Shown piece after piece: positions 18,998-26,395 of a DNA stretch of 64,000 nt. Below the pieces are notes generated by a model. It was given only the letters and a program-made list of their open reading frames with translations, was not told the origin of the DNA and searched no databases. Source of the DNA: Terriglobales bacterium (GTDB lineage: Bacteria > Acidobacteriota > Terriglobia > Terriglobales > Acidobacteriaceae). A program made the position numbers and the translations under genes. The stretch covers positions 1-64,000 of the forward strand of contig DASTZZ010000025.1 of assembly GCA_035764005.1 (NCBI GenBank), given 5' to 3'. Every line of letters begins with the position of its first letter. The first letter of the stretch is position 1.

Positions 18998-20803
18998 TTG
19001 CCCAATCGCACGCATTCCAATCGCTCGGTCTTCCTTAAGCGCCTGCTCGAATTGGCCCGGCCAAGCTATGCCCATCTGATCGGGATCTTTCTTCTCGGCG
19101 TACTTTCGGTGCCGATCTCGATCCTCATGCCTGTGCCGCTGAAGATCGCGGTCGACAGTGTGATTGGAACTCATCCACTTGCTCCGATCTTGAACCGTCT
19201 GGTTCCGGCAAGATTTGCTGGGACGGAAGTGGCCAATCTCGCAGTCGTGATGATCGTGCTGATTGGCCTCGCAATCCTGAGCAACCTGCAGACACTCGCC
19301 TCATGGCTGCTGCAGACCTACACGGGCGAGCGCCTTGTCTACGAGCTGCGCAACCGGCTCTTCTGGCACGCGCAGCGTCTTAGTCTTTCCGCGCACGACC
19401 GTCGTGGCGTAAACGACATCGCCTATCGCATTCAGCATGACGCGCCGGCGATTCAGTTCATCTTTATTCAAGGCGTGCTGCCGCTGATGACCTCGGTGCT
19501 GACCTTCGTCGGAATGTTTTACATCGTCGCGCGCATTGATAAGTCAATCGCCGTGGTCGCTCTGGTCATTTCGCCGGCACTGATGATTGCCGCCCGCCGG
19601 TCCAGCCGGCGAGTTCGCAAAGCCTGGCAGGGAGTCAAAAGCCTTGACAGCTCCGCCATGCTGCTGATGAACGAAGCCCTGGCCTCGATTCGCGTGGTGA
19701 AGGCCTTCAACACGGAAGATTTCGAGGACAGCCGTTTCCGCCTGCGCTCCCGCGAGCGCATGAAAGAGCAGTTGCGACTGGCGTCGATTCAAGCCGGCTA
19801 CCATCTTCTGATCTCCTTCGCGATTGCCGCTGGCAGCGCAGCCGCATTGCTCATCGGAATCCGCCACGTGAAGATGGACATCATCACGCTCGGCGATCTG
19901 TTACTGGTGATGGCATATGTTGCGCAGCTCTACAGTCCGCTGCAGATCATCAGCAGCAAGCTTCCAGAATTGCAGTCCTGGCGCGTGAGCCTGGAGCGCG
20001 CGTTTGCGTTGTTCGAAGAGAATCCCGAATTAGGACAGAGCCACGCGCTACATGCGCCGGTCGATCGCGTTTCAGGCCAGGTAAGCTTCGAAGATGTCAC
20101 CTTCGCCTATGCTTCCGGAACCAAAGCGCTGGACGATGTATCGTTCAGCATTCCCGCAGGCACAAAGGTCGGCATCGTAGGCCAAAGCGGCTCGGGCAAG
20201 ACCACGCTCGTCAATCTGCTCGCGCGCTTCTACGAACCCAGCAGCGGACGCATCCTGCTTGACGGCATTGATCTGCATAGCTTTGGCATCGCCGCGCTGC
20301 GCCAGCAGCTCGCGATTATCAGCCAGGAGCCGGTGCTCTTTTCCGCGACCATCGCCGACAACATTTCTTATGGGCGTCTCGACGCCAGCCGCACGGATAT
20401 TGTGGCCGCTGCCACTGCAGCCCATGCCCATGATTTCATTATGGGACTGCCGCAAGGCTACGACACCAAGATCGGCGAAGGCGGCTCACGACTCTCCGGC
20501 GGACAACGCCAGCGGCTGTCCATTGCGCGAGCATTTTTGAAAGATGCTCCTCTTCTTATTCTCGATGAACCAACGAGCGCGCTCGACGTCGGCACCGAAG
20601 CCGATCTGATTGCCTCTCTTCAGGAAGTCATGCGGGGACGAACTGCGTTCGTCATTGCCCATCGTCTAAACACCATCCGCAACTGCGATGTGCTGCTGGT
20701 GATGGAAAAAGGCAAGCTGAAAGACATGATCTGGCAGAACGAGGAGCAGGCCGCGAGGCCAGACTCGATGGAAGCGCTGTTGAGATACAGTCCGACAGCC
20801 TAG
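18998..20803 (+). CDS. ABC exporter, fused permease and ATPase (MsbA-like)
   Basis: A 601-residue half-transporter: six membrane helices across residues 20-320 and an ATP-binding domain after about 350. Walker A GQSGSGKTT is near 394, the signature LSGGQRQRL near 498 and Walker B LLILDEPTSALD shortly after. Such type IV exporters form homodimers moving lipids, peptides or drugs outward; the substrate is unknown. The frame begins at a TTG with a GGGAGG stretch farther upstream than ideal, so the exact start is uncertain. It stands alone, followed by a palindromic repeat that may end its transcript. Confidence 0.9.
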   Translation: MPNRTHSNRSVFLKRLLELARPSYAHLIGIFLLGVLSVPISILMPVPLKIAVDSVIGTHPLAPILNRLVPARFAGTEVANLAVVMIVLIGLAILSNLQTLASWLLQTYTGERLVYELRNRLFWHAQRLSLSAHDRRGVNDIAYRIQHDAPAIQFIFIQGVLPLMTSVLTFVGMFYIVARIDKSIAVVALVISPALMIAARRSSRRVRKAWQGVKSLDSSAMLLMNEALASIRVVKAFNTEDFEDSRFRLRSRERMKEQLRLASIQAGYHLLISFAIAAGSAAALLIGIRHVKMDIITLGDLLLVMAYVAQLYSPLQIISSKLPELQSWRVSLERAFALFEENPELGQSHALHAPVDRVSGQVSFEDVTFAYASGTKALDDVSFSIPAGTKVGIVGQSGSGKTTLVNLLARFYEPSSGRILLDGIDLHSFGIAALRQQLAIISQEPVLFSATIADNISYGRLDASRTDIVAAATAAHAHDFIMGLPQGYDTKIGEGGSRLSGGQRQRLSIARAFLKDAPLLILDEPTSALDVGTEADLIASLQEVMRGRTAFVIAHRLNTIRNCDVLLVMEKGKLKDMIWQNEEQAARPDSMEALLRYSPTA

Positions 20804-20822
20804 ACCTTAAATGGTCACCGGA

Positions 20823-20900
20823 GTCAGTACCGTTCGCGGTAGCGAATGGGTGAATCAGCAGCAACGCGTTACACCCATCCGCTACCGCGGACGGCACTGA
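20823..20900. repeat. Palindromic repeat, family A, complete copy
   Basis: The arms TCAGTACCGTTCGCGGTAGC and GCTACCGCGGACGGCACTGA form a long imperfect hairpin, with GAATGGGTG / ACACCCATC next inside. It sits after the ABC exporter gene and before the threonine-operon leader. Confidence 0.85.
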
Positions 20901-20990
20901 TCTGCTCCCACTCTGCTGAAACAAAAGCACTTCCCGAAACCGAACATCCCTCTGTCATCATACGGCGTCCAATAGTAACTAACGCCTGAG

Positions 20991-21019
20991 TTGACGGCTG
21001 CCGAAGTCTGCTCTAGGAT
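20991..21019 (+). promoter_or_regulatory. Candidate promoter of the threonine operon
   Basis: A TTGACG -35 hexamer (20991-20996) and TAGGAT -10 hexamer (21014-21019) are separated by 17 bases. The predicted start near 21026 would leave only about four bases before the leader ATG, so the leader would be almost leaderless. Otherwise the true promoter lies further upstream and AGGA at 21015-21018 serves as ribosome site. Confidence 0.4.
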
Positions 21020-21029
21020 GTTTGCATTC

Positions 21030-21116
21030 ATGAACGCCATTCGCCGAATTTCGATTGAAATTACAATTACACGCACAAGTATGCCCACAATCGAATCGGC
21101 GGAGGGATGTAGTTAA
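21030..21116 (+). CDS. Threonine-operon leader peptide
   Basis: A 28-codon ORF with ATG at 21030 and TAA at 21114. It contains six Ile and four Thr codons, concentrated in the run IEITITRTSMPT (residues 9-20), comparable to the Thr/Ile-rich ThrL leader of enteric bacteria. It lies 28 bases before a strong terminator that precedes aspartokinase, hom, thrC and thrB. Ribosome stalling at Thr or Ile codons would be the sensor of charged tRNA. This is inferred from sequence architecture, with no similarity search. Confidence 0.75.
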   Translation: MNAIRRISIEITITRTSMPTIESAEGCS

Positions 21117-21172
21117 GCAATAAAAGTTCCGAAGAGACAAAAACCCACCGCCGAATCGGCGGTGGGTTTTTT
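21042..21172 (+). promoter_or_regulatory. Transcription attenuator of the threonine operon (three exclusive hairpins)
   Basis: Segment 1 (CGCCGA and TTCGA, 21042-21054) can pair with segment 2 (TCGAATCGGCG, 21091-21101), an 11-pair protector hairpin with a two-base bulge and the control codons in its loop. Segment 2 (21096-21106) can instead pair with segment 3 (CCCACCGCCGA, 21144-21154) as antiterminator, with one mismatch. Segment 3 with segment 4 makes the terminator. Segment 2 is almost identical to segment 4, as expected for competing partners. Confidence 0.7.
21141..21172 (+). terminator. Intrinsic terminator of the attenuator
   Basis: AAACCCACCGCC and GGCGGTGGGTTT form a perfect 12-pair stem around the loop GAATC, followed by TTTTTTATTTTG. 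It ends 31 bases before the aspartokinase start codon, so without antitermination the operon would not be transcribed. Confidence 0.88.
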
Positions 21173-21203
21173 ATTTTGCGGAATGGAGCAACTGGAGGAC
21201 TCC

Positions 21204-22625
21204 ATGCTGGTAATGAAGTTTGGCGGTACCTCGGTGGAATGCGCGGAGAGCATCAGCCGCGTTGCAGAGATTGTCCGCCATCGGCAGCACATGCAGCCGG
21301 TGGTTGTGGTGAGCGCGCTGGCGCGAATTACCGACCAACTGCAATCGCTCGGCGCGCTCAGCAAAGCAGGCAAGCTCGACGAAGCCCTGCGTCTGCTCGA
21401 CGCAATGGAAAAGCGCCACGCCGAAGTTGCTCATGCGCTTCTGGACGGGAGATCGGCGGAGGTGCTCGCGATTCTAAAACCGATGTTCGAAGAAGTCGCC
21501 GCCCTGCTCAGAGCGGTGGCCGCGATTAGCGAGCTCAGCCCGCGAACCTCCGATCGGCTGCTGAGCTTCGGCGAGCGCTGGTCGAGCGTGCTGGTGAGCG
21601 AGGCGCTGCGCGAGCGACATCTGCCGGCAGACTTCGTCGATGCCTGCGAGGTGATCGTTACCGACGACGATCACACTCACGCCGCTCCCCTCGTGGACGT
21701 GATTGCCTCCCGGGTTCAATCCCGACTCAAATCTGTAGTCAAGAAAGGTTCCATTCCCGTAATGGGAGGTTTCATCGGAGCGACGCAGGAGGGCGTCGTC
21801 ACTACTCTCGGACGCGGAGGCTCTGATTTCACTGCGTCGATCGTAGGCGCGGCGCTCGGCGCGGAACGCATCGAGATATGGACGGATGTGAACGGCATGA
21901 TGACCACTGATCCGCGCATCTGTCCTGACGCCCAGAACATCGATTCCATCAGTTTCGAAGAGGCCGCCGAGCTGGCCCATTTTGGAGCGAAGGTGCTGCA
22001 TCCCAAGACGCTGCAGCCTGCAGTTGAGAAGGGCATTCCCGTTTACGTACTGAACTCGCGCCATCCGGAGAACCGCGGCACTCGCGTTGAAACGGTGAAC
22101 TGCAATGGCGAGCCGCGCGTTCGCTCGATCGCCTGTAAACGCGGCATTCGTCTCGCAGAAGTTTTTGCCAAGCAGGGACTCGACGCCAAGTTGACTTCTT
22201 CGATCTTCGCCATCGCCGAGCAGCAGGATTGCCTGGTTGATCTCGCGGCGGTGTCCCGCTCGAATCTCTCGTTATTGCTGACTTCGCCACAGTCTGCAGA
22301 GTCGTTGGCGAAGGCACTCGACGGCGTTGCCAGTGTCAAAATTACCGAAGGCGTCGCGCTGGTCTCCGTAGTAGGACGCAACGTCGCGCGCGATCCGGTG
22401 ATCTCAGCCTGCGCCCTGAGCGCTCTTTCGGGATTGCCGGTGAAGATGATCTTTCACGGGGCCTCCGACATGAACCTCAGCTTCGTCGTTGATGAGAGCC
22501 ATGCCGACGAGGCGGTTCGCCGCATGCATCGCGTGATGTTCCCGGCGCCGGTGAGCGTGTCGGGTCCGGAAGTCATTGTGCATGACAGCTTCGGACTCCC
22601 ATCCCTGCAGGTGGCGGAGGCATAA
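21204..22625 (+). CDS. Aspartate kinase
   Basis: It phosphorylates aspartate, the first step to threonine, methionine and lysine. The start chosen is the ATG at 21204 because GGAGG sits five bases upstream; a longer frame from 21162 would begin inside the terminator hairpin. The 473-residue protein opens with LVMKFGGTSV, has a kinase domain to about 290 with GRGGSDFTA and WTDVNGMMTTDPR, and ends in paired ACT domains for feedback control. It is monofunctional, unlike the ThrA fusion of enterics. The hom gene follows after three bases. Confidence 0.95.
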   Translation: MLVMKFGGTSVECAESISRVAEIVRHRQHMQPVVVVSALARITDQLQSLGALSKAGKLDEALRLLDAMEKRHAEVAHALLDGRSAEVLAILKPMFEEVAALLRAVAAISELSPRTSDRLLSFGERWSSVLVSEALRERHLPADFVDACEVIVTDDDHTHAAPLVDVIASRVQSRLKSVVKKGSIPVMGGFIGATQEGVVTTLGRGGSDFTASIVGAALGAERIEIWTDVNGMMTTDPRICPDAQNIDSISFEEAAELAHFGAKVLHPKTLQPAVEKGIPVYVLNSRHPENRGTRVETVNCNGEPRVRSIACKRGIRLAEVFAKQGLDAKLTSSIFAIAEQQDCLVDLAAVSRSNLSLLLTSPQSAESLAKALDGVASVKITEGVALVSVVGRNVARDPVISACALSALSGLPVKMIFHGASDMNLSFVVDESHADEAVRRMHRVMFPAPVSVSGPEVIVHDSFGLPSLQVAEA

Positions 22626-22628
22626 ACG

Positions 22629-23927
22629 ATGGCAAGCCAAACGGTCGTTCTCTCTCAACCCGCTCCCCTGTCGGTCGCTCCGGCAGCTGCGCGCAAGGTC
22701 GCGCTTCTTGGCTTTGGAACCGTAGGAAGCTCCGTCGCGCGCATTCTCACTTCGGGAAATGCTCCCGGATTGGAACTTACTCATGTTTTCAACCGCAATG
22801 TACAACGCAAGCAGGTTTCGTGGGTGGATTCATCCGTTTTCTGGACCGAAGACGTCGATGCCGTGCTGGATAGCGACGCCGACGTGCTCGTCGAAGTCAT
22901 AGGCGGGGTAGAGCCTGCGTACTCGTGGGTGAAGGCCGCCCTCGAAGCAGGCAAGTCGGTGGTCACGGCGAACAAGCAGCTCATCGCGCGCTTCGGACCG
23001 GAACTGCTGGCGGTCGCTGCCGAGAACGGAGGCCAACTGCTTTTCGGGGCTTCGGTTGCCGGCGGAGTTCCCGTCATCACCGCCGTCGAGCGCGGACTCG
23101 CGGGTGACGAACTGCAATCGGTCTGCGGCATCCTGAACGGGACCTGCAATTACATCCTCAGCAAGATGGAAACCGGACAGCCATTCGCCGTGGCACTCAA
23201 GCAGGCTCAGGAGTTGGGTTATGCCGAAGCCGATCCGACCGATGATGTCGCCGGTTACGACACGCGCGCCAAGCTGGTGATCCTCGCACGCGTCGCGCTC
23301 GGTGCAGAGGTTCCGGTCGAAGCCGTGCCATGCACTCCGATCTCGCATGTACAGCCAATCGACTTCGAGTACGCGCGCGAGCTTGGCTGCACGATTCGTC
23401 AGATCGGCGAAGCGCACGTAAATGGTGACGAGGCCTTCGCGACGGTTGAGCCCATGCTGGTTCGCCAAACTTCGGCACTCGCGCGAGCACAAGGATGCGA
23501 GAACGTTGTAATCACCGGCGGCAAGCTCGGAGGCAACACCGCCTTTTCCGGTCCGGGCGCGGGCGGCGATGCAACCGCGGTCGCGGTCGTCTCCGATCTG
23601 CTGACTCTCTCGCACAATCCTTCACGTACGGCGCTGCGGCCTGCACGAGATTTTGAATTGGCAAAAGACTGTGTTGCACCGTACTTTCTGCGCTTTGTGG
23701 TAAAGGACCGTCCAGGAATCGTGGCCAGCATCGCCAGCGTCCTGGCGAAGTTTCACATCAACGTCGATGCCGTATTTCAGAAGCCGGGATTCGATAAGAG
23801 CGCGCTTCCGTTCGTCGTGACTGTGGAGGCGTGCAGAGGGGTGAAGCTGGCGGCGGCTCTGGAAGAGATCGCGCACAGCGAGTTTCTGGTTGAAGCGCCA
23901 TTGAAGCTCAGGATTTTTGCGGATTGA
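22629..23927 (+). CDS. hom: Homoserine dehydrogenase
   Basis: It reduces aspartate semialdehyde to homoserine with NAD(P)H. The 432-residue protein has the Rossmann motif LLGFGTVGSS near 30, the GGVEPAY and NKQLIA segments, the catalytic core ILNGTCNYILSKM with YAEADPTDDVAGYD near 170-215, and a C-terminal ACT domain (FVVKDRPGIVASIASVLAKF) for threonine feedback. A GGAGG lies ahead of its ATG, three bases after the aspartokinase stop. The next operon gene follows after a 330-base gap occupied by a long palindrome. Confidence 0.96.
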   Translation: MASQTVVLSQPAPLSVAPAAARKVALLGFGTVGSSVARILTSGNAPGLELTHVFNRNVQRKQVSWVDSSVFWTEDVDAVLDSDADVLVEVIGGVEPAYSWVKAALEAGKSVVTANKQLIARFGPELLAVAAENGGQLLFGASVAGGVPVITAVERGLAGDELQSVCGILNGTCNYILSKMETGQPFAVALKQAQELGYAEADPTDDVAGYDTRAKLVILARVALGAEVPVEAVPCTPISHVQPIDFEYARELGCTIRQIGEAHVNGDEAFATVEPMLVRQTSALARAQGCENVVITGGKLGGNTAFSGPGAGGDATAVAVVSDLLTLSHNPSRTALRPARDFELAKDCVAPYFLRFVVKDRPGIVASIASVLAKFHINVDAVFQKPGFDKSALPFVVTVEACRGVKLAAALEEIAHSEFLVEAPLKLRIFAD

Positions 23928-24024: not shown

Positions 24025-24220
24025 AAGGCCCAAAGGGCCGGAAGAAGTGCAGCCCAGGGCGTAAGCCCTGGGTAGAAATCCACGGAACGGAGCCCCGAAG
24101 GGGCGGCATACCTTTTTCGCAGGGAGACAAGATGCCGCCCTTTCAGGGCTCGGATCGGATACGGCGGATGACCCAGGGCTTACGCACCTGGGCTGCGCTT
24201 CTTTCGGCCCTTCGGGCCTG
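24025..24220. repeat. Long inverted repeat inside the threonine operon (family C)
   Basis: The left half (GGCCCAAAGGGCC, GAAGAAGTGCAGCCCAGGGC, TAAGCCCTGGG) is mirrored on the right (CCCAGGGCTTACGC, CTGGGCTGCGCTTCTTTC, GGCCCTTCGGGCC). A central CCGAAGGGGCGGCA / TGCCGCCCTTTCAGG pair completes it. It fills most of the gap between hom and thrC and must be read through if the four genes share one transcript. Confidence 0.85.
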
Positions 24221-24257: not shown

Positions 24258-25472
24258 ATGCAATTGCAGTGCAGCAATCACGAATGCCGTCACGCGCTCG
24301 ACCGGGAGTTCGCGTCATTCGAGTGCCCCAAGTGCGGCGATCTGCTGGAGATGTCCAGCAACGGCTTTCGTCCTGACGCGGGAAAACTGCGGCGCCTCTG
24401 GCGCGACCGCCGCGCTTCCAATGCTCCGGAAGATCGCAGCGGCGTGTGGCGCTTTCGCGAGTTCCTTCCGCAGTATCTCGACGAGAGCATCGTCACGTTG
24501 GGAGAAGGGAATACTCCGCTGCTCGCCGGCGCGAACACCGCCGAATACGCCGGCGTGAGTCGGTTGCAATTCAAGCATCTGGGCTGGAATCCGACCGGCT
24601 CATTCAAAGATCTCGGCATGACCGTTGGTGTAACAGAGGCGCGGCGGCGCGGCGCGAGGATAGTTGCCTGCGCTTCAACCGGCAACACCGCAGCTTCGAT
24701 GGCAGCGTACGCAGCGCGCGCCGGCATGACTGCCCGCGTGTATCTGCCGAAAGGCAAGCTCTCACGGGCGAAGGTAGCGCAATCGTTCGACTACGGTGCC
24801 GAGGTGGTCGAGATCGACGGCAACTTTGACGACGCGCTCGCACAGATGATGCAGCGCAAAGATTCCGGCGAATACTTCCTTAATTCCATCAATCCATTTC
24901 GTATCGAAGGCCAGAAGACGACGATGTTCGAGCTGATGGAGCAGCTTGATTGGAATCCTCCAGACTTCGTCGTTGTTCCGGGCGGCAACCTCGGCAACTC
25001 TTCCGCTTTTGGGAAGGCCCTGAAAGAGCTGCACTCGGCAGGATTCATCTCCAAGGTGCCGCGTCTTGTTATCGTGCAGGCAGCAGGAGCAAATCCTCTT
25101 GTGCAGACCGTGGCGGCAGGAGCCCAGTCATTGACAGTCGTTTCCAACCCAACAACTTGCGCGACAGCGATCCAGATCGGCTCTCCACGTTCCTGGCGCA
25201 AAGCGCTGCACGTTCTGAGTTTCACAAAGGGAATCGTGCTCGACGTGAACGACGAGGAGATTCTCGAGGCGAAATCCATCATTGGACGCGACGGCATCGG
25301 CTGCGAACCTGCTTCGGCGACGACGCTGGCGGGCATTCGTCGTCTGCGGCAGCGCGGAGCAATCGAGCGCGATGCGCAGGTAGTAGCGATCCTCACCGGG
25401 CACGTGCTGAAGGATCCCGACATCGTCCTCAAGATGCACGAAGGCAAGGCAGTTCGGAAGGCAGACTCATGA
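24258..25472 (+). CDS. thrC: Threonine synthase
   Basis: A PLP enzyme that converts O-phosphohomoserine to threonine. The 404-residue protein starts with a short zinc-ribbon-like segment (CSNHECRH, CPKCGD), then the PLP Lys in SFKDLGM near 115, the STGNTAASMAAYAARAG loop and GGNLGNSSAFGKAL. This matches the shorter class of bacterial threonine synthase. Its TGA overlaps the ATG of thrB (ATGA at 25469), so the pair is translationally coupled. Confidence 0.95.
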   Translation: MQLQCSNHECRHALDREFASFECPKCGDLLEMSSNGFRPDAGKLRRLWRDRRASNAPEDRSGVWRFREFLPQYLDESIVTLGEGNTPLLAGANTAEYAGVSRLQFKHLGWNPTGSFKDLGMTVGVTEARRRGARIVACASTGNTAASMAAYAARAGMTARVYLPKGKLSRAKVAQSFDYGAEVVEIDGNFDDALAQMMQRKDSGEYFLNSINPFRIEGQKTTMFELMEQLDWNPPDFVVVPGGNLGNSSAFGKALKELHSAGFISKVPRLVIVQAAGANPLVQTVAAGAQSLTVVSNPTTCATAIQIGSPRSWRKALHVLSFTKGIVLDVNDEEILEAKSIIGRDGIGCEPASATTLAGIRRLRQRGAIERDAQVVAILTGHVLKDPDIVLKMHEGKAVRKADS

Positions 25473-26395
25473 GTTCTCAAGAATTGGAAGGCGCTGAGAT
25501 TATGGTGCCGGGATCGATTGCCAACATCGGTCCCGGCCTGGATACGCTGGCAGTGGCGGTGCAGCTTTACCTGCGCCTGCGCGTTGTTCGCGTGAGCTCC
25601 TCTGAGCGTGGAGCATTGCATTTTCGTTTTGGGAAGCTTCCGCTCAATGGCGAGAATCGCATCGAGACCGCCTTTCGCAAGCTCGCGGTCGATCAGCACG
25701 ATTTTCCTTCCTTACACCTGGAAGTCGAAAGTGACATTCCCATGGGTTCCGGCCTTGGCAGCAGCGCGGCTGCGACTATCGCTGGTTTCAGGCTCTACGA
25801 ACTTCTCTATGGTGAGCAGACTTGTGAATCTCTTCTAACCGCAGCCACAGAACTCGAAGGACACGCCGACAACGCGGCGGCTGCGCTCCTCGGCGGGCTG
25901 GCTGTTTGCTGCCAGAAGCAGGACGGATCGGTATGTGCGTTTTCCAGTCCATGGCCTTCTTCGCTGAGATTCGTCGTGCTCACCCCGGAAGTGGCACTCT
26001 CGACCGAGCGTTCGCGCAAGGCGTTACCGCAGGCTGTTCCATTGAAAGATGCGGTCGCAAACATGCAGCGCGTCCTTTTGCTATTGCAGGCGCTGCAAAG
26101 TGGCGACGATTCGCTGCTGGCAGAATCTCTCGCCGACCGTCTCCATCAACCGACGCGTGAGCCGCTTGTGCCTGGACTGAATGCGGCACTCCGGCTCTCG
26201 CACCCAGACTTGCTCGGCGTCTTTCTCGGCGGCTCTGGACCATCCATCGTAGCCTTGGCGCGCGAGAGATGCAGTGAGATCGAGGAAATGCTTGCGCAGA
26301 GCTACCATCCACTGGGGATTCCATTTCGGACCTCGATTCTGCACGTCCACAATCCGTCGGCGACTATGATTGCGCCGCTTCTGTGCACTTCGTGA
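25469..26395 (+). CDS. thrB: Homoserine kinase
   Basis: A GHMP-family kinase that makes O-phosphohomoserine for threonine synthase. The 308-residue protein starts at the ATG that overlaps the thrC stop; the longer open frame upstream is not coding. It carries VPGSIANIGPGLDTLAVAV near the start and the ATP-binding PMGSGLGSSAAA near 92, with a C-terminal FLGGSGPSIVAL segment. With aspartokinase, hom and thrC it covers the threonine branch except aspartate-semialdehyde dehydrogenase, which must lie elsewhere. Confidence 0.95.
   Translation: MSSQELEGAEIMVPGSIANIGPGLDTLAVAVQLYLRLRVVRVSSSERGALHFRFGKLPLNGENRIETAFRKLAVDQHDFPSLHLEVESDIPMGSGLGSSAAATIAGFRLYELLYGEQTCESLLTAATELEGHADNAAAALLGGLAVCCQKQDGSVCAFSSPWPSSLRFVVLTPEVALSTERSRKALPQAVPLKDAVANMQRVLLLLQALQSGDDSLLAESLADRLHQPTREPLVPGLNAALRLSHPDLLGVFLGGSGPSIVALARERCSEIEEMLAQSYHPLGIPFRTSILHVHNPSATMIAPLLCTS

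Follow-up and report, generated by a model that had tools for sequence, protein, structure and literature searches.

The closest known system to the one considered here is the enteric thrL leader (Rfam RF00506, Thr_leader), in which, as at the present locus, a Thr/Ile-rich leader peptide and a terminator switch precede aspartokinase and the thr genes. In E. coli, the specificity of this attenuation is set by the Thr and Ile codons (Lynn 1987, as cited in the available part of PMC7041290). Leaders with regulatory codons are also found in the Actinobacteria, for which the accessible portion of PMC1262725 describes attenuators of trp and leuS as well as leader peptides of ilvB and cys, terminators being present at trp and ilvB, and leaders with runs of Cys codons before the cys operons; that portion of the survey gives no conserved structures for the histidine, threonine or methionine operons. 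As for the Acidobacteria, a 2010 survey (PMC2965389) contains, in the excerpt available, almost no predicted attenuator with an associated function, and the corresponding excerpt of PMC4833913 records that leader genes of this group peak in the vicinity of structural genes, without mention of threonine. A preliminary description of the present locus knew of no acidobacterial case, and indeed no threonine attenuator of Acidobacteria was found in the open-access literature searched, although priority remains uncertain.

The locus lies in a stretch of 64,000 nucleotides from a Terriglobales bacterium (GCA_035764005.1, contig DASTZZ010000025.1, positions 1 to 64,000), referred to below as the window. 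We interpret it as a ribosome-mediated transcription attenuator controlling aspartokinase-hom-thrC-thrB, with a probability of about 0.9; the regulation itself is unproven, there being no expression data.

Architecture of the thr leader region

The elements of the region, all on the forward strand, are the following:

20991..21019, +, predicted promoter (TTGACG at 20991-20996, 17-nt spacer, TAGGAT at 21014-21019)
21030..21116, +, leader peptide ORF of 28 codons, MNAIRRISIEITITRTSMPTIESAEGCS, then TAA
21040..21057, +, segment 1, the protector 5' arm (from the fold and a swap control over 24 loci)
21096..21106, +, segment 2, the protector 3' arm and antiterminator 5' arm (from the duplex and swap control)
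21144..21154, +, segment 3, the antiterminator 3' arm (21144-21153 doubling as 5' arm of the terminator core)
21157..21172, +, segment 4 (21157-21166) and T tract (21167-21172) of the intrinsic terminator
21204..22625, +, aspartokinase, the first structural gene (NCBIfam asp_kinases; GGAGGA at 21194-21199 before the ATG)
22629..23927, +, homoserine dehydrogenase, hom (NCBIfam PRK06349.1)
24258..25472, +, threonine synthase, thrC (NCBIfam thrC)
25469..26395, +, homoserine kinase, thrB (NCBIfam thrB)

All four genes score above the NCBIfam cut-offs and follow the terminator in the order first proposed for them. The leader is likewise present at 21030-21116 as originally claimed, with four Thr codons (12, 14, 16 and 20, all ACA) and six Ile codons (4, 7, 9, 11, 13 and 21), and its stop is separated from the aspartokinase ATG by 87 nt that include the strong terminator. 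Two further features of the neighborhood may be recorded in their own right: an Acido-Lenti-1 RNA (Rfam RF01687) at 24026-24072 on the minus strand, in the gap between hom and thrC (45.6 bits, cut-off 37), and a long imperfect inverted repeat lacking a U tract at 20819-20910, between the ABC-transporter gene and the thr promoter, where a microRNA-family match far below its cut-off probably reflects the hairpin only.

The three mutually exclusive RNA pairings of the preliminary description were found where it had placed them. Its 12-pair terminator exists, the count being only close: a core of 10 pairs (21144-21153 with 21157-21166, 3-nt loop) is extended by five A/U pairs to 15 in all (-26.2 kcal/mol), and the structure ends 31 nt ahead of aspartokinase. 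The antiterminator proposed between 21096-21106 and 21144-21154 pairs at 10 of its 11 positions, with one A/A mismatch, and its duplex energy of -20.2 kcal/mol (z -5.2) is equalled by 0 of 200 shuffles. The protector pairs as suggested but extends further than the 21042-21054 with 21091-21101 first given, joining 21040-21057 to 21088-21103 (21040-21047 with 21096-21103, and 21050-21057 with 21088-21095). Taken by itself the protector fold is only moderately better than shuffles (z -1.8); the fold of the whole region (z -4.8) is matched by 0 of 200. Additionally, 3 of 100 shuffles yield an ORF with as many Thr codons as the leader of the window, a borderline result for this sequence alone. Given these two values comparison with other genomes was needed, and it is conservation rather than the single sequence that excludes chance. 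Counted against the attenuator reading is the greater stability of the terminator over the antiterminator in isolation (-26.2 vs -20.2 kcal/mol), by reason of which kinetics must decide the outcome, as it does in known attenuators too.

The predicted promoter is the sole promoter-like site in 20700-21300 with both strands scanned (0.4 expected); its score is reached by 0 of 100 shuffles, its TTGAC and TAGGAT are invariant across four same-genus sequences, and it implies a 5'UTR of about 4 nt. Among the 26 loci of the family survey described below, the best sigma-70-like site ends 3-15 nt before the leader start in 22 (predicted 5'UTR of at most 9 nt), the loci without such a near site being L156, L180, L186 and L224; in 18 of the 26, the near site is also matched by no more than 10 of 100 shuffles. 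The search was confined to 75 nt upstream of the leader start, a short range that favors near sites, and near-leaderless translation of the leader is a prediction, no start having been mapped.

If the attenuator operates as envisaged, transcription would begin only a few bases ahead of the ATG of the leader, which would be translated at once. With charged tRNA-Thr (as well as tRNA-Ile and probably tRNA-Met) in ample supply, the ribosome would reach the stop and cover segment 2, upon which segments 3 and 4 would form the terminator; with charged tRNA scarce, it would stall at the control codons and keep segment 1 away, such that segment 2 could pair with segment 3 and the polymerase continue into the operon. 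In the absence of translation, segments 1 and 2 would be expected to pair and the terminator to form. The transcription start, translation, stalling, termination and the identity of the amino acids sensed are all inferred in this scheme.

Conservation, covariation and codon content

The genus was sampled by six genomes, the window's own (G000) comprising 131 contigs. Four of the six, counting the window's, have hom and thrC behind an aspartokinase of this type; the aspartokinases of the relatives are 65-69% identical to that of the window, and promoter, leader, segments and terminator are kept in all three relatives with the orthologous operon. Locus L086, of the same-genus genome G135, was identical to L001 over 1750 nt spanning the aspartokinase and its upstream region and was dropped. 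The fifth member of the genus (G151) has a Thr leader, MNRSRNIATTTSMCTTRTATRFSGEPVN, before a homoserine-kinase-like gene (named by eye), and in the sixth (G150, 88% complete) just a different aspartokinase was found. Such a comparison of orthologous upstream regions had been proposed at the outset as a check, and its outcome is favorable: the orthologous operons retain leader codons and stems, with concerted changes at paired bases. Conservation in the alignment extends to the promoter elements, the terminator and the greater part of segments 2 and 3, and UCGGCGG with CCGCCGA in the window corresponds to CUGGCGG with CCGCCAG in L001 and L084, L085 being an exception in which CCGGCGG faces CCGCCAA and the last two pairs are lost. 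The expected conservation of both kinds of control codon holds for Thr but for only one Ile: codons 12, 14, 16 and 20 are Thr in all three relatives, whereas in a by-eye peptide alignment only one of the six Ile is kept (codon 7), with two replaced by Met, one by Thr, one by Ala and one by a gap; at codon 13, where the window has Ile, the three relatives have Thr or Ser. The leader start is TTG in two of these three. As negative controls, a covariance model of the 26 loci (R1), with E allowed up to 5, gave no match in the neighborhood of the genus's second aspartokinases, and no leader was found before any of five close homologues of ilvB in the genus.

At the level of the family, hom was searched in 150 genomes and matched in 121 (aspartokinase in 147 of 150), and the regions upstream of hom were taken from 80 genomes hand-chosen among the stronger matches. 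With the window, L001, L084 and L085 these make 84 loci, 83 of which were parsed (L228 was left out for want of a hom start): 25 in which an aspartokinase precedes hom by less than 900 nt, and 58 in which none does. A Thr leader and terminator occur together in 22 of the 25 aspartokinase-first loci, the device not being found in the other three (L181, L200, L231), and directly before hom in 4 of the 58 hom-first loci. The latter figure undercounts thr operons with a leader because leaders or R1 matches stand before more-upstream aspartokinases: by position, R1 matches just before an aspartokinase further upstream in G003 and G038, and in G029 the Thr leader that it matches belongs to an aspartokinase lying some 4 kb upstream of hom. 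The first leader and terminator scan missed bulged terminators, and segment 3 was then located by pattern, which biases the locus set toward similar arms. A scan of aspartokinase loci was insensitive, missing L096 and L104 though their genomes, G100 and G073, carry the device (L198, L180), and it supplied a single new case (L010, leader MTLISTATISATRDPAGWIRLS). In all 26 loci the leader stop lies 28-40 nt before the terminator 5' arm, which was partly a condition of selection, and the promoter-like site, leader and hairpin recur jointly before thr operons in many genera of the family.

L084 and L085, being closely related to L001, were excluded when codons, swaps and shuffles were counted, leaving 24 of the 26 loci. 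In these, segments pair better with partners from their own locus than with swapped ones, with a mean of 8.31 vs 7.65 (sd 0.12) of 11 positions for the antiterminator and 8.0 vs 7.06 (sd 0.15) for the protector, neither being reached in 500 swaps; the ungapped placement used here puts segment 2 elsewhere than the duplex prediction does in some loci (e.g., L157, L220). Singly, the antiterminator is matched by no more than 10 of 200 shuffles in 21 of the 26 loci and is weak, with more than 10 as good, in L157, L179, L185, L197 and L198. When the leader is folded without segment 3, 17 of the 26 loci have a z no higher than -2, and the window is one of the nine that do not. Further, segment 2 is often CUUCUGG or near to it, yet is read in differing frames, as Leu-Leu (L222), Phe-Trp (L180), Ser-Ser-Gly (L220) or Ala-Ser-Gly (L199); hence, it is the RNA and not the peptide that is conserved there.

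Thr makes up 18.4% of the 708 codons of the 24 leaders (start excluded), as against 4.6% in seven genes of the window (4.0-fold), and 81 of the 130 leader Thr codons are ACA, the rarest Thr codon of those genes (13 of 135). Relative to the same genes, Met is raised 2.6-fold (5.9% vs 2.3%, p 3e-8), Ile 1.8-fold (9.9% vs 5.5%, p 3e-6), and Cys, Arg and Ser 2.0-, 1.7- and 1.6-fold. This background is small, being seven genes of one genome; independent of it are the counts of trinucleotides by frame in the leader interior, which are 77/6/0 for ACA, 40/0/1 for ATG (36/0/1 past codon 7) and 42/1/1 for ATT. The leaders and their frame were picked partly by Thr content, for which the frame counts and shuffles submitted to the same choice serve as controls: the Thr-richest ORFs of the 24 loci contain 137 Thr vs 22.6 (sd 6.9, maximum 42) in 100 shuffles, 53 Met vs 5.5 (maximum 14) and 70 Ile vs 16.1 (maximum 32). 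On average, 12.1 of the 24 shuffled loci hold any such ORF, and the rest were summed as zero, which widens the contrast.

The position of these codons was assessed by a stall simulation, in which everything as far as 12 nt beyond the first base of the A-site codon was treated as unavailable and the remaining RNA, to the end of segment 3, was folded. For the window, the antiterminator forms with stalls at codons 2-20 and not from 21 on, a permissive stretch that includes all four Thr and five of the six Ile codons. Over the 24 loci, such stretches comprise 501 of the 708 codons and hold 119 of 130 Thr (OR 5.6, p 5e-10), 39 of 42 Met (p 7e-4) and 56 of 70 Ile (OR 1.7, p 0.1). The permissive stretch is effectively the leader before segment 2, and since the sequence of segment 2 is constrained, part of this placement may follow from that.

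These data bear on what the leader would sense. Response to threonine only, with Ile and Met incidental, is a variant of the attenuator and does not exclude it; with Thr by far the most enriched residue, five of the six Ile positions of the window not Ile elsewhere in the genus, and Arg, Ser and Cys somewhat raised as well, it stays possible, if rather doubtful, in the face of the significant enrichment of Met and Ile, the frame specificity of ATG and ATT, the permissive placement of Met and more weakly of Ile codons, and the Met-rich leaders found elsewhere before asd-like and O-acetylhomoserine sulfhydrylase-like genes (names by eye). The label "Thr/Ile leader" of the preliminary description should probably be amended to Thr/Ile/Met; with enrichment extending to Met codons, all three amino acids may be read jointly by the switch.

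Other explanations dispense with leader-controlled termination altogether or make it secondary. The upstream ABC-transporter ORF (18998-20803) ends on the same strand as the hairpin, and apart from this terminator and a shorter version of it, 20700-21300 has no U-tailed hairpin on the plus strand; the hairpin could in principle be the 3' terminator of that gene and the ORF a chance occurrence of the sort that 3 of 100 shuffles provide. However, it lies about 340 nt beyond the gene, the joint recurrence of promoter-like site, leader and hairpin before thr operons in many genera tells against such an origin, and so do the swap and shuffle controls, leaving this explanation very improbable. Slightly less so, though still highly unlikely, is action of the leader through translational coupling or reinitiation, or through a trans-acting peptide, for which the trpL peptide sets a precedent: against it stand the 87 nt and strong terminator before the aspartokinase ATG and the divergence of the peptide sequences while RNA pairing is kept. 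Control of downstream translation by a short leaderless ORF is nonetheless described for mycobacteria in the available part of PMC9031893. Finally, the structured nature of the leader region is all that would commend a small-molecule riboswitch or RNA-binding protein as the agent controlling the terminator, a proposal scarcely tenable given that no Rfam match reaches the gathering score in the leader or comes near the cut-off in a relaxed search, that conservation outside the segments and the stretch around the stop codon is little (by eye), and that the codon signal is frame-specific.

The ribosome-mediated attenuator, by comparison, meets the sequence tests of its class, with a leader enriched in codons for the product, a terminator before the first gene, a covarying and mutually exclusive antiterminator and protector, and control codons placed to free segment 2. 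Its basis in the ORF, the possible helices, their conservation and covariation, and the codon placement is observed, and the interpretation first offered for the locus is to this extent supported by the comparative test.

Similar leaders rich in other codons

At E 0.01, R1 has matches in 112 of 298 genomes from the order and in 33 of 396 from the phylum. Equating these matches with Thr attenuators was rejected, as many carry other codons: among the 22 inspected, Thr leaders number 4, as against 15 for Cys and 3 for Val, two of the last being identical. Outside the family, 17 genomes have a match, and one was inspected in each of 14; seven look like Cys/Met leaders (L302, L303, L308, L309, L311, L317, L320), and seven were set aside as lacking a plausible leader (L305, L310, L312, L315, L316, L318, L321). 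Of the weaker matches in the genus, seven were examined besides L282; three of these are His/Pro leaders (L283, L285, L288) and four are not leaders (L287, L289, L292, L293).

The genes behind Cys leaders encode CysD and a NirA/sulfite-reductase-like protein, the latter scoring below the cut-off of its family; acetolactate synthase follows a Val leader. The Cys-rich leaders with a like scaffold (L262, L263, L266-L268, L271-L278, L280, L281) are followed by sulfite/nitrite-reductase-like, rhodanese-like (by eye) and CysD genes. A Cys leader of this kind lies about 5.5 kb from the Thr leader and opposite to it in each of G123 and G082, and comparable pairs of matches appear, by position only, in five further genomes. 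Cys-rich leaders also occur before a peroxiredoxin-like gene (by eye), which does not belong to amino-acid synthesis (L313, L314, L319; e.g., MTTISNTLSLRCCCCGCLAGVRG). In acidobacterial families other than that of the window, Met-rich leaders precede asd-like and O-acetylhomoserine sulfhydrylase-like genes, again named by eye (L308, MATRFLSPRPATMSMPMMAMRMTSIGGRIVSGP; L320, MAMAMRGPTGGGGALM).

In the genome of the window, R1 found only the present element and its reverse complement, and the following leaders were found via their genes instead:

G000:C77 just above 20113 (L331), His-rich leader MRQLHHHRHYHHVANVSADRL before hisI, with terminator and antiterminator
G000:C95 just below 49768 (L336), Pro-rich leader MFLRSFNPPIPCPPPACARWCGWMEDA before proC, with terminator
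G000:C25 just above 116837 (L325), Pro-rich leader MSQVFSTPSPNPCPSPVRRDRFGK before proB, with terminator

The genes hisI, proC and proB were identified by 84, 77 and 52% identity to relatives, with hisI and proC above and proB just below the NCBIfam cut-offs. The His leader is present in all five genus members with hisI (further loci L328, L329, L330 and L332), and another genus has one too (L300). The proC leader is present in four of four; the proB leader is present in two of four, the other two keeping the proB terminator at the far end of the stretch viewed (further Pro loci L322, L333-L335). In 18 loci for other amino acids, the antiterminator can form and most control codons fall in the permissive stretch. 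Relative to shuffles, the antiterminator is well supported at the His loci (z -2.6 to -5.3) but only weakly at proC (z -1.0 to -2.4) and at the Met leader L308 (z -1.8). None of nine such loci scanned matches an Rfam family at the cut-offs of that database. We know of no established proline leaders before proline-synthesis genes elsewhere, and none appeared among the papers listed in one literature search.

The thr attenuator is thus probably one member of a broader acidobacterial system. A more far-reaching reading, on which we find the case evenly poised, is that Acidobacteriota use a single re-codable attenuator architecture as a general amino-acid sensor, and that its thr version reads all three homoserine-derived amino acids. 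This architecture would consist of a near-leaderless leader, a stop about 30 nt before the terminator, and a terminator 5' arm pairing with the end of the leader; the codons exchanged on it would be Thr/Ile/Met (thr), Cys (sulfite-reductase-like genes, cysD and others), Val (ilvB), Met (asd-like), His (hisI) and Pro (proB, proC). Duplication accompanied by a change of codons may be how the scaffold spread.

Comparison with described attenuators

The acidobacterial leaders differ from enteric thrL in their Met codons, and the window has separate aspartokinase and hom genes, unlike E. coli, in which the two are fused. The preliminary description left the resemblance to ThrL as either convergent or ancient. 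This can be narrowed: as the window leader does not match Thr_leader (22.2 bits vs a cut-off of 55) and its Ile richness is mostly private within the genus, the likeness looks convergent and is best read as such. Additionally, thrL has an efficient ribosome-binding site, according to the part of PMC7041290 available, whereas the predicted acidobacterial 5'UTR is a few nucleotides.

In the latter respect, the leaders recall the mycobacterial polycysteine leaderless short ORFs (Canestrari 2020, as cited in the accessible text of PMC9031893), in which elongation likewise reads amino-acid supply; there, as far as that text goes, the control of downstream genes is translational, as opposed to the U-tailed terminator and antiterminator of the acidobacterial devices. 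Similarly, no terminators are reported for the actinobacterial cys leaders in the portion of PMC1262725 available, whereas the acidobacterial Cys leaders noticed here have them.

On the evidence of sequence comparison, these observations extend leader-peptide control of threonine synthesis to the Acidobacteriota and point to His and Pro switches in the same genome. They also offer a natural experiment, in which one RNA switch appears to have been re-coded for different amino acids, and render testable the number of amino acids (Thr, Ile, Met) read by a single attenuator. While attenuation itself is known, what is new in the thr attenuator, as compared with the described systems, is its Met codons, its predicted near-leaderless start and a scaffold unlike the Rfam Thr_leader.
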